Virus record (IMG/VR): IMGVR_UViG_3300036770_001455
Coordinates: 1-50,132 of that record
Direction: 5' to 3' (one strand)
Length of the DNA stretch: 50,132 nucleotides
From: a virus
Shown: positions 4,166 to 48,453 of the stretch, in pieces
Numbering within the stretch: position 1 is the stretch's first letter
How the letters are laid out: each line of letters opens with the position of its first letter
The notes under the pieces: model-generated
What the model was told of the DNA's origin: nothing
Database searches by the model: none
Seen by the model: only the letters and a program-made list of their open reading frames with translations
Made by a program: the position numbers and the translations under genes

Positions 4166-7100
4166 TGGCGACGGTGATCGGACTTGGCGTGCAGTTCTCG
4201 GCCAATGCCAACGGCATGACCAAGGGGCTGTCGCAGGTCGATCGCCAGTTGCAGAACCTCGGCAAGCAAGCCAGCCAAGCAGCGAGGCTCTTTGACGGGT
4301 TCGCCTCATCGAGTGGTGCGGCAGCAGCGGCACAGCAGCAGGTCGCCACCGATATTGCGTTCCTGACGAGTGCCTTCAAGACCGGGCAAATCTCGTCAGA
4401 GACGTTCGCCGAGACACTGCGAGACATCACCTCCAGTGCCCAGCAATCGGCGGCTGCGTTCGCCGAAGGGGCACGGATCACGGAGCAGACGGCAACCGCC
4501 GAAGAGCGGCGTGTCGCTCAACTCGACCGGCTTGGCGACCTGCTCCAGCAAGGTGCAATCGACGCGGAGACCTACGGGCGGGCCGTGGCATCGTCGACTG
4601 CCGGATTCGACGGCACGCAGGCGGAAAGGTTTGCCCAGGCTATCGCTCCGCTGCGTGAGCAGTTGCAGTCGGGTGCTATCTCGCTGGAGGAGTTCAATCG
4701 GCAGGCGGGTGGCGTAGCCGATGCCGTCTCTGGCTCCACGTCGTCGGCGCAGCGTAGTGCCGAGGCGATTCTGGAACTCAAGCGGCAACTTGATGCCGGG
4801 GCGATCTCGATTGAGGAGTACCGCAATCAGTTCTCTCAGATCCAGGCGGGCAACATTTCCAGCACGCTCTCGGTCGAGGTGCTCGGGATTCGTGAGGGCA
4901 TTGCGGCGAGTGCGGACCTCCAGGCTGCGATCGCCAGTCTTGAAGGCACGCAGATCGAAGCGGCGTTGCAGATCACGGGCGTCGATTCGATTGACGACCT
5001 GCGGCAGCGGTTTGACGGCGTCGATGGGCGGCAACTCGATGCGTTGCTGCAAGTGCTGGGTGTCGAGTCGATCGAACTGGCACGGCAGCAGTTGGCGGCG
5101 ATCGACGGCACCGAGGTGCTGGCCCAGTTGCAGACTGCCGGGTTTGAGTCGATTGAGGAAGCCCGGTCGCTCCTCGACAGCGTCGAAGGCAAAGACATCA
5201 CGCTCCTCGCCGAGACGCTTGGCATCGAGTCGATCGAGCAACTCACCGCCGTCATCAACGCGGTCGAGTCTCGCACGGTGGAGTTCAACGTTGACTCCAA
5301 CGCGGACGAGACGGCGGCTCAGGTCAAGGCGTTGGTCGATGAGCAGGCGGCGTATCAGCAGTTGCTTTCGGAAGCGGCTCGCATCACCCAGAAATACACG
5401 AGCGACGAAGAGCGGAGGGCGGCAGCCATTGCCAAGATTGAGGAACTCAATCGGGCGGGCGTGCTGTCCGAGGAGATTTACTCGCGGGCGATCGAGGACG
5501 CGAGCGGGGCGAAGGCGGAAGCGGCCCGCGTCGACCAGCAGAGGGCGGCGGATTCCGCCCGTGCCGCGCAGATCATCGAGGCGAATCTGTCTGCTGAAGA
5601 GCGGGCGAGCCGCGACTACGCTGCCTCGGTCGCGGAACTTGATCGGCTCGTGGCGGCTGGCGTTCTCACCGAGGCGGACTACGCCAAGGCGGTTGAACGC
5701 TCGGCGGCGGCCTTTGCGAAGGCGACCGTGGCGGCAGCCCGCTACGAAGACGCGGCAGACGGTGCCGGTGACGCGGGCGTGCTGAAGTTCAATGAACTCA
5801 GCGGCGTGCTCGCTGCGATCCCCGGCCCGATCGGCAACGTCGCTGGTCGGCTCTCTGGGTTGGCGAGTGCAGGCGAAGGGTTGAGCAGAGTCTTTGCTGG
5901 CGGACTCTCGCAGGGGCTCGCGAGTATCGGCACGTCCGTTGCCGGGCTTGTCAATCCGTTTACGGCGGGGCTGGCTGCGGTTGCGGCGTTTGGTGCCGGT
6001 GCGACTGCGGTGGCTCGCGGGCTCCTCGATCTTGAGGACCGCGTCGAGAACCTCGGCAACATCGCCGACAAGTTGGGCGTGTCGTTCGAGTTCATCCAGA
6101 CGCTCGAAGAATCCGCCAATCGTTCCGGCACGAGCATCGACGCCGTGAGTGCGGCATTCGGTCGGCTTCAGAAGTCGGTGCTGGGCGTGGACGAGGAAAG
6201 CAAGGCGGCACAGAAAGCCCTGGCCGAGATCGGCGTCACGGCGGAGCAGTTGCAGTCGCTCAGTCCCGAAGAGCAGTACAAGCTCATCGGCGATGCGTTG
6301 TCGGGTATTGAAGATCCCGCCCGGCGGACGGCGGCGGCTACGGCGTTGTTTGGGCGTGCCGGTGCTGACCTGCTTCCGTTCTTCCGCAACCTCGGGCCTG
6401 CGGCAGCGGACATCGAGCGGCTTGGCGGTGCGTTGTCGGACATCGACCGGCGGCGGATCGACGACTTCGGAGCCGGGCTCGATGCCCTTGGCGTGGCGAG
6501 TTCGCGGCTTGGCGAGTTGCTGCTAGTGCCATTCGCGGGGCTTGGCGAAGGGATCACGCAGGGCACAGCGGAGTTCCTCGGTGGCATCAACCGTATTGCC
6601 GATGCGATTGGAGACATTCTCGCGCCTGAGATGAATACTCTTGGCAACCTGTTTCAGGCGATCGGCGCGGCTGCGTCTGTGGCCGCCGACATCATCGCCA
6701 CGTCGTTTCGGCTTGTGCAGCAAGTGTTGGAGCCGATCGGCGGGAGCATCCTGCCAGCGGTCGGGGCTGGCATCGCGTTTGTCAATCGGCAGATCCTTGT
6801 CGGTGCCGTGGCGAATCTGGCGAAGTTCTTCACGGCGGCTGCGGCTGCGGCTGTTGCGTACGCCACGTCCGCCGGTGCTGCAACCGTATCGACTGCGGCT
6901 CTCGGCGTGGCGATTCGCGGGGCAATCAACTCGACGGGCGTTGGCGTTCTCGTCACTGGCTTTGGGCTCGCGGCGGGGGCGTTGCTGGAGTGGGCGTTTT
7001 CCTCTGATGAGGCTGCTGAGTCCACGAATCGCCTGTCAGAAGAAATTACGAGCGCAACGAATCAAGCATCGGCATTCGGCCAAGAGGGTGTCGCAGCCCT

Positions 7101-18996: not shown

Positions 18997-19006
18997 CCGC
19001 CAAACG

Positions 19007-19030
19007 CCCGGCGGCACTGGTGCCGCCGGG
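19007..19030 (+). terminator. perfect hairpin after the first early gene
   Basis: CCCGGCGGCAC (19007-19017) and GTGCCGCCGGG (19020-19030) are perfect 11-bp complements with a two-base centre (TG). No T-tract follows (CTGACGGACA), so it may attenuate or protect message ends rather than terminate. It separates the P1 gene from the gene at 19062. Confidence 0.5.
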
Positions 19031-19061
19031 CTGACGGACACAATCCCAAAGGGCTTAGGAA

Positions 19062-23821: not shown

Positions 23822-24181
23822 ATGAGTAGTGAACAGGTTGCCCCGTGGCTTGCGGAGATTGGCAGGCGAGCCCAGGTCAGGCAGACGGGCAGGCCAGTGC
23901 CGCCGATTACGCAAGGGCTCAAGGTCGCCAAAGAACTTGACGAACGGTCGGCGGCGAAGCTGGAAGATGATTTCCGCGATGCCATTCGTTCGTCGGAACC
24001 AGAAGACGAGTACGACCTGAACAGCAGGGTTCTGGATGCCGTCACTTGCAACCGGCTTTCCAGCAAGCAAGGCGTGCGACTCCTTCGGATGCTGTTTGGA
24101 AGAAACGACGGCACACCTGGCTTCCAGCGGGTTGACGCCCACGGTGACATGCACGACGTGAATCGCTGGGGAGCCGCCTGA
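23822..24181 (+). CDS. hypothetical helical protein upstream of the replication protein
   Basis: 119 residues from ATG 23822 with AAGGAGG 10 bases upstream. Mostly helical, with WLAEIGRRAQVRQTGRPVPP and VTCNRLSSKQGVRLLRMLF; the C-terminus GDMHDVNRWGAA is coupled to the next start (TGATG). It may be a small helicase-loader or origin accessory, as such proteins often precede DUF1376 genes. This is inference from position. Confidence 0.6.
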   Translation: MSSEQVAPWLAEIGRRAQVRQTGRPVPPITQGLKVAKELDERSAAKLEDDFRDAIRSSEPEDEYDLNSRVLDAVTCNRLSSKQGVRLLRMLFGRNDGTPGFQRVDAHGDMHDVNRWGAA

Positions 24182-25137
24182 TGCCACGAAAGAAGCTCTG
24201 CCGCCTCGATGATGAACGGGTTGACATGTTCCTCCCGTTGTTCTGCCGCGACTTCCTTATGAGCACGATCGGGTGGACGGCTGCCCAGCGGGGGCACTAC
24301 CTGACGCTCCTTATGGTGCAGTGGGACGGGGGCGGATTGCCTCCCGATCTGGAACATTTGGAGCGCATTTCGGGAGGCGTTTCGGAACACTGGGAACTAC
24401 TGGAAAACAAGTTTCCAGTAGGCACCGATGGTCAACGAAGGAACATGCGGCTAGAGGAACACCGAAAGGCTGCCGTCGAAATCCGCCAAAAACGCCGAGA
24501 AAACGGCAAAAAAGGAGGGAAACCTAATGGGGTACCAAATGGGGTACCAAATGGGTACCCATCCGGTACCCAAATGGGTGCCCATCCGGGGGTGCATCCA
24601 GAACCAGAACCAGAACCAGAACCACAGTCTCTCTCTAAAGAGAGAGACACGGGGAGTCCCGTCTTTCGGTCTTCGGATGGCGATCCATCGGCTAGGCAGG
24701 CAGGACACGCTGTGACCGCTTGGGAGTCTCTGCTGTCCGCCTGGAACGCTGCGGCTGGCAGGTGCAAGCACATTGCCCGGTTCGACTCGCTTCACCCTCC
24801 ACGGGCCTTCCACGATCGCTACGACGAACTGGCGTGGCAGGAGGATTGGCGGCGTGGCGTTGAACGGCTTGAGCGTTGCCGATGGTTCACAACCCCGGTC
24901 TCGCTGACGTTCTTTCTCAAGGAAGACACGCTCGCTTCAATCCTAGCCGGGCAGTACGACCCCAAAAAGCCGACGCGACCCGGCGATCAGGCGAGTGCTG
25001 GGCCAGTTGTCTCGACACGCATGTGGCGAGATGACGCCTGCCAAAACATGACAGACGAGCAATATGCCGCATGGAGGCGAACGCAAAAGGGCAGTCCAGT
25101 TGCGTCTACTGCGAACATCACGGAGGAGGATCTATGA
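24181..25137 (+). CDS. DUF1376 replication-initiator-like protein
   Basis: 318 residues. The N-terminal domain (about 15-80), FLPLFCRDFLMSTIGWTAAQ then RGHYLTLLMVQWD and a LPPDLEHLERISG helix, is DUF1376, a winged-helix domain at the start of phage replication proteins. A basic linker (KAAVEIRQKRRENGKKGGK), then a Gly/Pro/Asn repeat region and a GluPro stretch (120-150), then a C-terminal region (AWESLLSAWNAAAG to FLKEDTLASILAG) like the primosomal/DnaT-like or helicase-loading part. The linker DNA is itself repetitive and looks like a replication origin, as lambda O contains ori. It probably loads host helicase. Confidence 0.8.
   Translation: MPRKKLCRLDDERVDMFLPLFCRDFLMSTIGWTAAQRGHYLTLLMVQWDGGGLPPDLEHLERISGGVSEHWELLENKFPVGTDGQRRNMRLEEHRKAAVEIRQKRRENGKKGGKPNGVPNGVPNGYPSGTQMGAHPGVHPEPEPEPEPQSLSKERDTGSPVFRSSDGDPSARQAGHAVTAWESLLSAWNAAAGRCKHIARFDSLHPPRAFHDRYDELAWQEDWRRGVERLERCRWFTTPVSLTFFLKEDTLASILAGQYDPKKPTRPGDQASAGPVVSTRMWRDDACQNMTDEQYAAWRRTQKGSPVASTANITEEDL
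24526..24648. other. candidate replication origin inside the replication gene
   Basis: Three repeat types are packed into about 120 bp: five 12-bp units AATGGGGTACCA/AATGGGTACCCA and variants (24526-24584) with four GGTACC palindromes including the 12-bp palindrome ATGGGTACCCAT (24551-24562); GAACCA repeated four times (24601-24624); and a perfect inverted repeat GTCTCTCTCT-AA-AGAGAGAGAC (24627-24648). Iterons within an initiator gene are the lambda O arrangement. The A-rich tract CAAAAACGCCGAG...GGCAAAAAAGGAGGG (about 24488-24520) just upstream could be the unwinding element. Confidence 0.6.
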
Positions 25138-25388
25138 CCGAGATCGAGACCATCGAAAAGCCCAGCCCTAGCGAGCCCACCGACCGGCAGCGAGCCGTGT
25201 ACGAATGGGTTGTCGACTACTGCGAGGCCCACGGGTACAGCCCCAGCATCCGCGAACTCATGGCGGCGTTCGGCTTCAAGAGCCCTAACGGTGCGATGGC
25301 TCATCTGCACCCGCTGCGGAAGAAGGGCTGGCTGACCTGGAACGATCGGCACTCGCGCACCATCCGCCCGATCGGAGGCGTGAAATGA
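25134..25388 (+). CDS. LexA-type DNA-binding domain without the protease domain
   Basis: 84 residues from ATG 25134 with GGAGGA upstream and ATGA overlap with the replication gene. Residues 17-80 form a LexA-like winged helix: RQRAVYEWVVDYCEAHGYSP, SIRELMAAFGFKSPNGAMAHL, then a LRKKGWLTW wing. The Ser-Lys autoprotease part is absent; the typical LexA is about 200 residues. Such short proteins could compete with host LexA, regulate phage early promoters, or block the SOS response. The palindrome TACCGA-TG-TCGGTA in this window is a candidate target. Confidence 0.8.
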   Translation: MTEIETIEKPSPSEPTDRQRAVYEWVVDYCEAHGYSPSIRELMAAFGFKSPNGAMAHLHPLRKKGWLTWNDRHSRTIRPIGGVK

Positions 25389-26697: not shown

Positions 26698-26879
26698 CGA
26701 TCGAACAATTCACGCTTGTCAGCGTGGGAGTGTTGGTGAACGGACTTACTTTTGCCCTCGGCCTAGCCGTTGGCGCATCTCTACGAAAGGAATCGAAGAA
26801 TGGGAACGAAAACGAAGCGGGCCGCTGGCATCGCGTTGAACGCAGCGGATCTCAAGGCGGCACTGGCAACGGTGCGTGA
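26694..26879 (+). CDS. small membrane protein
   Basis: 61 residues. ATGA overlap with the methyltransferase stop. Residues 6-27 (FTLVSVGVLVNGLTFALGLAVG) make one transmembrane helix; the rest is charged and Gly-rich. Its 3' part overlaps the clamp gene (start 26800) by 80 bp, with the clamp in another frame, which limits its real C-terminus. Such short anchors are common in early phage regions. Role unknown. Confidence 0.5.
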   Translation: MTIEQFTLVSVGVLVNGLTFALGLAVGASLRKESKNGNENEAGRWHRVERSGSQGGTGNGA

Positions 26880-27906
26880 CGCGGTTCAGGAGCGGTCTCC
26901 GAAGCCGATCCTGCGGAACGTGCTCATCAGCGGCGGGCAGATGACCGCGACCGACCTGGAGTTGCAGGTGACTACGGCGATTGACTTCGACGGCCCGGCG
27001 TTGCTCTTGCCTCACGGGCGGACGGCGTCGATCCTCCACGAGTGCCGTGATGACGAGGTGACGATTGCACCGGGCGATACGTCGTGCGTGATCTCGTGCG
27101 GGCGTGGCTCGTGGACGCTGCCCACCGAAGACGCCGCCGAGTTTCCGCAGATGAGTGCGGAGGGGGCGACGAATCGGATCAAGCTCCCGGCGGACCAGTT
27201 CGCACGGGCGATCCGCTCGGTGGTCTACGCCTGCGATCGCGAGAGCAGCCGCTACGCCCTCGGTGGCGTGATGATCGAGGTGAAGGGTGAGACCGTAAGT
27301 TTCGTTGCGACCGATGGGCGGCGGCTGACGCTGACTCGGATCGATCACGACCTGGCTGTCGACGATTCGGAAACGCTCGTGCCGCAGCGGGTGGCGAAGC
27401 TGCTGGCCCGGATCGCGGAGCAGGCGGGTGGCGAGGAACTCGTCGAGATCGACGCCAGTGGCAACACGGTCGTCTGCACGATCGGCACTACCATCGTGAC
27501 GGCTCGGCTCGTGGAAGGGCGTTTCCCGAAGTGGCGTGATGTGTTCCCGAAGCGTGACGTGAAGGCAACGGTGGTTGATCGTGAGTTACTAGCGGCTGCG
27601 ACTAGAGCAGCGGCGATTACTACCAGCGAGGCGAGCAAGGGCGTTGACTACTCGATCGTCGAGAACGGCATTCACCTGCACTCGCAGAGCAGCGAGGCGG
27701 GCGAGAGCAGCGTGACGTGCGAGATCGTCGAGCCGGGCGAGACAGTGACGGTGAAGCTTGACCCTCGGTTCGTCACGGATTTCCTTGCTGGACTGCCAGC
27801 GGATAGTGAGCCGAACGTCGAGATCGAGGCGGTAACGCCGGGCGACGCCGTGCAACTCCGCAACGGCGACGTATTCGGAATCATCATGCCGCTGGCGAAC
27901 GACTGA
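26800..27906 (+). CDS. dnaN: DNA polymerase III beta sliding clamp
   Basis: 368 residues, the length of the bacterial beta clamp, from ATG 26800. The three-domain repeat is visible: NAADLKAALATVRDAVQERSPKPIL, then ATDLELQ, then VSFVATDGRRLTLTRI and VTVKLDPRFVTDFLAGLP, ending VFGIIMPLAND, where clamps end in the conserved (Y/V).(V/I)MP(M/L)R. A phage clamp would hold host or phage polymerase on the template. No DNA polymerase or clamp loader was recognised in the window, so it must use host factors or genes lying outside it. Confidence 0.9.
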   Translation: MGTKTKRAAGIALNAADLKAALATVRDAVQERSPKPILRNVLISGGQMTATDLELQVTTAIDFDGPALLLPHGRTASILHECRDDEVTIAPGDTSCVISCGRGSWTLPTEDAAEFPQMSAEGATNRIKLPADQFARAIRSVVYACDRESSRYALGGVMIEVKGETVSFVATDGRRLTLTRIDHDLAVDDSETLVPQRVAKLLARIAEQAGGEELVEIDASGNTVVCTIGTTIVTARLVEGRFPKWRDVFPKRDVKATVVDRELLAAATRAAAITTSEASKGVDYSIVENGIHLHSQSSEAGESSVTCEIVEPGETVTVKLDPRFVTDFLAGLPADSEPNVEIEAVTPGDAVQLRNGDVFGIIMPLAND

Positions 27907-28600: not shown

Positions 28601-29356
28601 ATGAGGTGGGCCGCGTTACTCGCCGGGCTCAGTTGCGTTGCCGCTGTCGCTGGCACGATTGATGACGCCGTTCCCGATGCCCGGTATGTCGAGTATGGTC
28701 GGGCGTTCTCGAAATACACGGCGAAGTTTCGCGGCACTGCGGAAGACGGTCGGACGCATGTAGCGAGCGCCGTGCTCGTGGCTCCACGGTGGGCGATTAC
28801 GGCGGCGCATGTCGCCGCCGGCTGCACGGGCGTGACGCTGACTTACAGCGGCGACCGCGTCGGCGAGATCGAGCGGGTGATCGTCCATCCCGAGTGGGCC
28901 GATGAAGGGCTCGGACGGCACGACATCGCACTTCTGGAGGCGGCTGCCGACTTCGGGCTGGAGTTCTACCCGCCTCTTTCCGAGGGCGGCGAGGTTGGCA
29001 AAGTCGCCAGCGTGGTCGGCTACGGGGCGACCGGCCCCATGAGCTACGGGCACACCAAGGTCGACGGCATGCTCAGGGCTGGAACGCAGCGAGTCGACAG
29101 GATTGAGAGAAACTGCCTCGTGTGTAACCTCACGCTTCGCGGTTCGTCGATGGAAATCGGCATCGCCCCCGGCGACTCCGGTGGCCCGCTGTTCGTTGAT
29201 GGCAAGCTGGCGGGCATCAACAGCTACACGGCATCGCCACGCTCCTACACGCGAAGCCAGTACGGCGAGGAGAGCGGGCATACGCGGGTGGCGGTGTACC
29301 GCGAGTGGATCGCGAGAGTCGCCGGCTTGACACCGCCGCCATCCTCGCCGGAATGA
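28601..29356 (+). CDS. secreted trypsin-like serine protease (S1 family)
   Basis: 251 residues. A signal peptide is plausible at the N-terminus (RWAALLAGLSCVAAVAG). The catalytic triad is complete: H70 in ITAAH, D108 in RHDIALL and S193 in GDSGGP. Disulphide-type Cys are at 172/175. Trypsin-type proteases are unusual in phages. Being exported, it could cleave host envelope or extracellular proteins, or block competing phages. The gene is coupled to RusA by ATGA, so its timing is early-to-middle rather than late. No inhibitor gene is adjacent. Confidence 0.85.
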   Translation: MRWAALLAGLSCVAAVAGTIDDAVPDARYVEYGRAFSKYTAKFRGTAEDGRTHVASAVLVAPRWAITAAHVAAGCTGVTLTYSGDRVGEIERVIVHPEWADEGLGRHDIALLEAAADFGLEFYPPLSEGGEVGKVASVVGYGATGPMSYGHTKVDGMLRAGTQRVDRIERNCLVCNLTLRGSSMEIGIAPGDSGGPLFVDGKLAGINSYTASPRSYTRSQYGEESGHTRVAVYREWIARVAGLTPPPSSPE

Positions 29357-47932: not shown

Positions 47933-48453
47933 TGGCAAACATCGGCGATTCGTGCTGGCGTCGAAACGGCGTAGCCGCGTTGGAACTCCCGTTCCGCGTT
48001 CGTCTCCCTGACGGTTCGACTCGCACCGACCCCTCTCAGTGGAGCAACGACGAATCTGTTCTGGCGGCGACCGGCTGGAGCCGATCAACGCTGACGCAGG
48101 ACGATCTGGATGCCCTGTTCCCGCCGCCGCCGCCTGCGCCGGAGCCGACGCCGTATGAGGCTGGCTATGACACCGGACTCGGCTGGCGTCTCGGCTGGCA
48201 ACCCGATGACGTGGCCCTGCTCACGGGGATGTACGTTCTCGCGAGCCGTGCCGCTGAACTGGGAGTCGACCAGCCGGTGAACGTCGTCGATATGGACGGC
48301 GTGGCCCACACGCTGCCGTTCGCGGAATACGAGGCGATCATGCTCGCCTACGGTGCGGCGAGGGCCGCGTTGTCGGCACCGCCGGCTCCTGAGCCTGAAC
48401 CGGAGCCAGAACCGGCTCCTGAGCCTGAACCTGAACCGACTCCCGAAACCTAA
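47932..48453 (+). CDS. putative tail fibre assembly protein (DUF4376-like) with PE-repeat tail
   Basis: 173 residues. The N-terminal part (SCWRRNGVAALELPFRVRLP) and the middle WRLGWQPDDVALLTGMYVLA, VVDMDGVAHTLPFAEYEAIM resemble the DUF4376 region of fibre-assembly proteins, which help trimerise fibres. The C-terminus is PAPEPEPEPEPAPEPEPEP-type, a 25-residue rigid Pro-Glu arm, and a second Pro run (FPPPPPAPEP) separates the halves. It is encoded before the LamG adhesin, where an assembly chaperone is expected. Confidence 0.6.
   Translation: MANIGDSCWRRNGVAALELPFRVRLPDGSTRTDPSQWSNDESVLAATGWSRSTLTQDDLDALFPPPPPAPEPTPYEAGYDTGLGWRLGWQPDDVALLTGMYVLASRAAELGVDQPVNVVDMDGVAHTLPFAEYEAIMLAYGAARAALSAPPAPEPEPEPEPAPEPEPEPTPET

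Follow-up and report, generated by a model that had tools for sequence, protein, structure and literature searches.

A putative phage replication origin with phased iterons and a hexamer array inside a DUF1376-like initiator gene

Introduction

The replication origin of phage lambda is located in the middle of the O gene, where iterons adjoin an AT-rich tract (PMC7466680) that carries its purines almost entirely on one strand (PMC5043065). In plasmids, iterons are helically phased (PMC5043065). An active origin, oriJ, has also been reported in the Rac prophage (PMC3945230). Phages and prophages commonly encode proteins of the DUF1376 (YdaU) family, and the family still bears the name "unknown function". 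In the open-access literature searched, none of the matches for DUF1376 describes an origin; since subscription journals were mostly outside the scope of this search, this is weak evidence of novelty.

Here we analyzed the DNA of an IMG/VR virus record over a stretch of 50,132 bases (the window), in which the linker-coding part of a DUF1376-like gene carries a set of repeats. This locus resembles lambda ori and the origins of Stx phages in its site midway through a putative initiator gene and in the placement of several inverted-repeat iterons next to a strand-asymmetric tract that melts easily (PMC7466680, PMC5043065). In contrast to lambda, the protein is DUF1376-like and matches no lambda O family, the iterons are 11-12 bp apart rather than units of ~19 bp, and the part of lambda's simply A+T-rich melting tract would be taken by an ordered 6/7-nt array. 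The locus also resembles the iteron origins of plasmids (P1, F, RK2, pSC101, R6K), where helically phased direct repeats adjoin an unwinding region, and differs from them in that the repeats are within the initiator gene and a short periodic array presumably serves for unwinding.

Results

The window carries genes for head, portal, terminase, tape-measure, RecT, exonuclease, integrase-like, methyltransferase and sliding-clamp proteins. In a Pfam scan, the protein encoded by the gene under study (Table 1) scored 24.3 bits against PF07120 (E 4.2e-5). As this falls below the curated cut-off of 30.1 bits, we call the protein only DUF1376-like: its sequence resembles the family, and it is not filed as a member. 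The alignment made by hhalign with DUF1376 covered residues 17-115 (99 columns, the whole domain; E 7e-6, probability 84%), PHROGs matches were to phrog_3992 and phrog_9327, both "primosomal protein", and phmmer tied the protein to that of L055 (E 2e-7), which itself scores 39.7 bits and thus exceeds the Pfam cut-off. AlphaFold2 predicted a small helical fold with a wing for the N-terminal domain (mean pLDDT 92.3). Foldseek searches with the full-length and domain models found no significant solved structure, the domain matches being mostly winged-helix DNA-binding proteins, and a PDB sequence search returned no match. The lambda O family was absent from the Pfam and PHROGs scans, and the putative initiator appears not to be recognisably related to lambda O. 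The window ORFs scanned included no recognisable helicase or helicase loader. The end of the gene is overlapped by a gene (25071-25388) for a LexA DNA-binding-domain protein without the remainder of LexA; the phage-borne DNA polymerase sliding clamp (PF02767/PF00712) is encoded at 26770-27906, and a trypsin-like serine protease gene (PF00089, E 2e-19) adjoins the replication genes at 28601-29356.

Table 1 Features of the putative initiator gene and its candidate origin elements (positions in the window).
Feature	Coordinates	Strand	Basis or detail
DUF1376-like gene, 318 aa, putative replication initiator / primosomal protein	24181..25137	+	PF07120, PHROGs, hhalign
N-terminal DUF1376-like domain, predicted folded, residues 17-115, winged-helix-like secondary structure	24229..24525	+	AlphaFold2
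Second perfect inverted repeat, CTACTGGAAA-ACAAG-TTTCCAGTAG, 10-bp stem, 5-nt loop, in the domain-coding part of the gene	24397..24421		sequence
Iteron array: GGTACC at 24531, 24543, 24554 and 24565, GGTGCC at 24577	24530..24583		spacing 12, 11, 11, 12 bp
Hexamer array, (GAACCA)4 at 24601-24624 within a period-6 run; candidate unwinding element	24598..24624	+	sequence, melting, relatives
Perfect hairpin, GTCTCTCTCT-AA-AGAGAGAGAC, 10-bp stem, 2-nt loop	24627..24648		sequence

An earlier reading of the DNA (the original prediction) had described five 12-bp units with GGTACC in this gene. The repeats exist; their spacing alternates between 11 and 12 bp, and the fifth unit is GGTGCC. GGTACC occurs four times in the entire window, always inside the iteron array. 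The five units fall, in order, in coding frames 2, 2, 1, 0 and 0, the last being GGTGCC, so that GGTACC is read in three frames and the repeated unit is therefore one of DNA and not of peptide. The four GAACCA copies and the perfect hairpin with an AA loop were both found as described. Within the array, AACC occurs at 24602, 24608, 24614 and 24620, on the coding strand only, and by nearest-neighbour duplex stability the 40-bp segment from 24600 melts more easily than 99.3% of the genome. Perfect stems of at least 10 bp with a loop of 2-8 nt number three in the window, and two of them are those listed for the initiator gene in Table 1. No perfect hairpin of the contig is longer than GCCCGGCGGCAC-TG-GTGCCGCCGGGC at 19006-19031. 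An inflection of GC skew, also anticipated at this site, was absent: none was seen at 24.5 kb along the window, where skew may merely mirror gene direction.

Repeats in a coding sequence could be kept by selection on the protein, here as an acidic or polar EP/NQ spacer, and NQNQ and EPEP linkers do recur. We generated 5000 synonymous codon shuffles of the window gene, keeping its protein and codon composition. Four GGTACC copies were reproduced in 0/5000 shuffles, the count of the most frequent 6-mer was matched in 2/5000, the repeat score in 8/5000, and a 10-bp stem arose in 1/5000. Thus, the protein sequence alone does not account for the iterons or the hairpin. The hexamer taken by itself is not very unlikely under the codon use of the gene, its full length being reached in 52/5000 shuffles, which is a point in favor of protein selection; with codon usage from the other genes of the contig the figure was 0/5000. 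Elsewhere in this genome, a late gene encodes an EP-rich stretch (48388-48447) with a mixture of codons, indicating that EP repeats alone do not yield pure GAACCA. Another low-complexity coding repeat, with an 18-bp period, is present at 27686-27742, and the two form an internal contrast to the codon-pure GAACCA array. The same array DNA, moreover, yields linker peptides of NQ, EP or TR type, the 7-residue NQEPITN and, when reversed, SG. Given this variety, and GGTACC in three frames that no shuffle recreated, we regard protein selection as a highly improbable explanation. The shuffles, together with arrays read in all three frames in relatives, suggest that the elements are under selection at the DNA and not the protein level, as had been proposed.

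When viral contigs were scanned for (GAACCA)4, many DUF1376 genes proved to contain it, with NQ or EP as the encoded peptide, or SG where it is on the opposite strand. Because such a scan favours the motif, we collected genes by their N-terminal domain alone, thinned them to 78 non-redundant genes via shared 11-mers, and restricted all statistics to domain-selected sets. An AACC chain, defined as at least three AACC spaced 5-8 nt, was present on the coding strand directly after the domain in 68/78 DUF1376 genes. The spacings in these 68 arrays were 6 nt (155 times) or 7 nt (144 times), together 299/308. By reading frame, the AACC copies were distributed 227/87/58, with more than one frame used within a single array in 45/68, and chains of the opposite-strand GGTT never exceeded two. 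There were 69 AACC chains in 69 kb of DUF1376 genes versus 1 in 317 kb of flanking DNA, a ~300-fold higher density, and the position of the array is a sharp local minimum of nearest-neighbour duplex stability.

A second period was present in the 110 bp upstream of the array. Autocorrelation at 11 bp was 0.428, compared with 0.336 in protein-preserving shuffles, with echoes at 22 and 33. This 11-bp period was significant at p<=0.01 in 34/68 genes versus 3/68 in the domain-coding control, among genes that are mostly from Betaproteobacteria and mutually related, so that the per-gene p-values are not independent. In the 25 genes with GTTSAAC-type iterons, the units were 11 bp apart in 48 cases and otherwise separated by multiples of 11; the final iteron begins exactly 7 bp before the array in 14/25. 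The order of the elements is fixed and recurs across DUF1376 genes with the 11-bp and 6/7-nt periods.

These data also bear on whether the repeats could be functionless, having arisen by neutral microsatellite slippage where the linker of the protein is under no constraint. Linkers tolerate repeats, and the copy number of the array differs among relatives, as slippage would produce. Against it, strongly diverged genes share one word, the array combines steps of 6 nt with steps of 7 nt, changing the frame, the iteron period of 11 bp is not a multiple of 3, the chains are far denser than in flanking DNA, and the distance between iterons and array is constant in many genes. Neutral slippage is, thus, barely credible, and we consider it already largely refuted.

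Stems located 3' of the array were only mildly enriched, reaching p<=0.01 in 1/68 genes, and some relatives carry striking examples, among them CCCCCGCAAGCGGGGG and, in L176, a stem of 10 bp. A universal downstream hairpin was rejected, as the enrichment in relatives is only mild; the hairpin is the least general part of the layout and is kept as optional. The expectation that the repeats would be conserved despite protein divergence held strongly for the iterons and the array and weakly for the hairpin.

Next to the window gene itself, the close relatives located were an identical contig (L003/L250) and L004/L251, the only diverged one, while a search of annotated phages yielded only two distant Komagataeibacter phages. 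L003 is 100% identical to the window over 10 kb and is uninformative. The L004 protein is 38% identical to that of the window in the domain and 81% identical in the C-terminal segment. At the corresponding position, L004 carries repeats of a different sequence (CATTGCGATCG type) that are 11, 11, 11 and 12 bp apart, the first unit being identified by eye at 5322, and it also has a hexamer array, with the word CCCTTC, and a hairpin, AACAACAGGC-TGCC-GCCTGTTGTT. Read from the DNA of these two genes, the sequence has been swapped and the architecture retained. In L004 the reading frame (4962-5842) is broken at two places 3' of the repeats, one of them near a six-A run, through sequencing error, decay or frameshifting.

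We also sampled 25 PF07120 genes at random from other bacterial genomes of the phylum. Significant 6/7-nt arrays were present in 14/25 and repeats of the 11-bp type in 12/25, compared with 1/25 for the domain control. The array words were CACCAGA, CTCCAGA, CACCCA, TGACAG and others; thus, as far as their sequences indicate, these genes follow a matching plan with other words. E. coli Rac ydaU, a DUF1376 gene, likewise shows by eye iteron-like repeats of the TTGAAC/TTCAAC kind at ~11-13 bp, a short A-rich hexamer-like array and a C-run/G-run inverted repeat; in contrast to the AACC genes, its array word is AAAGAT/ACAGAT. In L262, six CAACGGCGTTC copies exactly 11 bp apart are located directly before the DUF1376 start codon (1-170 of the open frame), and therefore the element need not sit within coding sequence. 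Among ten downstream neighbours scanned in relatives were an IstB/DnaC-like protein (L214), DnaB (L233) and a lambda P homologue (L218). In this last relative, the DUF1376 gene precedes a P-like helicase-loader gene, as O precedes P in lambda.

A further explanation is that the repeats are a regulatory operator or an RNA-level signal and not an origin, acting, for example, in autoregulation by the protein or as a C-rich Rho-loading stretch followed by an mRNA hairpin. Rho-binding RNA is C-rich and G-poor, with regularly spaced YC steps. The RNA of the AACC array is similar in each of these respects, the arrays of the main survey are on the coding strand, with GGTT chains of two at most, and inverted repeats are present downstream of some arrays. 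Several observations point away from such a signal. L055, L014 and L066 carry the array in reverse orientation, their coding strand reading GGTTCT, and repeats are still present upstream in L014 and L066. The 11-bp palindromic units upstream, at a fixed distance from the array, together with the minimum of duplex stability, indicate a function at the DNA level; the neighbours in relatives are replication genes; and the 11-bp repeats of L262 precede the start codon. We consider an operator or RNA signal unlikely.

Discussion

We think it likely that the linker-coding part of the putative initiator gene holds a phage replication origin in the manner of lambda ori in O, composed of iterons, an unwinding element and, often, a hairpin. 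The original prediction of lambda-ori-like iterons, hexamer array and hairpin within an initiator gene is supported by the AACC arrays in most surveyed DUF1376 genes, the 11-bp iteron period upstream of them and the layout of L004.

Our model suggests that the N-terminal DUF1376-like domain would occupy adjacent 11-12-bp palindromic iterons along a single face of the helix. The stacked initiator complex could then open the adjoining GAACCA array, which is of low stability and strand-asymmetric. One opened strand, presenting AACC every 6-7 nt, would be held by the initiator or by a helicase loader while the replicative helicase is loaded. The downstream inverted repeat may limit the bubble or act in priming, a role to which the mild stem enrichment lends weak support. 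The 11-bp phasing, the adjacent melted tract and its strand asymmetry fit with a mechanism of the lambda or iteron type. Since the sequences of iterons and array drift while the spacing persists, every initiator probably co-evolves with its own iterons.

More tentatively, DUF1376-type initiators might mark out an extensive class of phage origins that has so far gone unrecognised. Its code would have two parts, 11-bp duplex iterons and a single-strand array with a 6/7-nt period (the word being AACC or specific to the lineage), the array being read by one initiator or loader protomer per repeat. Such an array could be the phage counterpart of the DnaA-trio of bacterial oriC, although we hold this broader proposal to be doubtful. 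By analogy, both would place a short periodic motif by binding sites in double-stranded DNA, with the initiator reading a single strand; they differ in that the period is 6-7 nt rather than 3, the word varies by lineage and no DnaA is implied.

For genomes that bear DUF1376 genes, the layout predicts the start site of replication; it gives the DUF1376 protein a testable role and would account for the NQNQ, EPEP and NQEPITN appearance of the linkers. It also suggests a periodic single-strand element distinct from the usual A+T-rich unwinding region. The array may be present in initiator families other than DUF1376. GAACCA/GGTTCT arrays were also seen in phage proteins in which no DUF1376 domain was recognised (L023:9340-10326, L066:8002-8622, L070:568-1446 and L084:7377-7868), several of them with upstream repeats.
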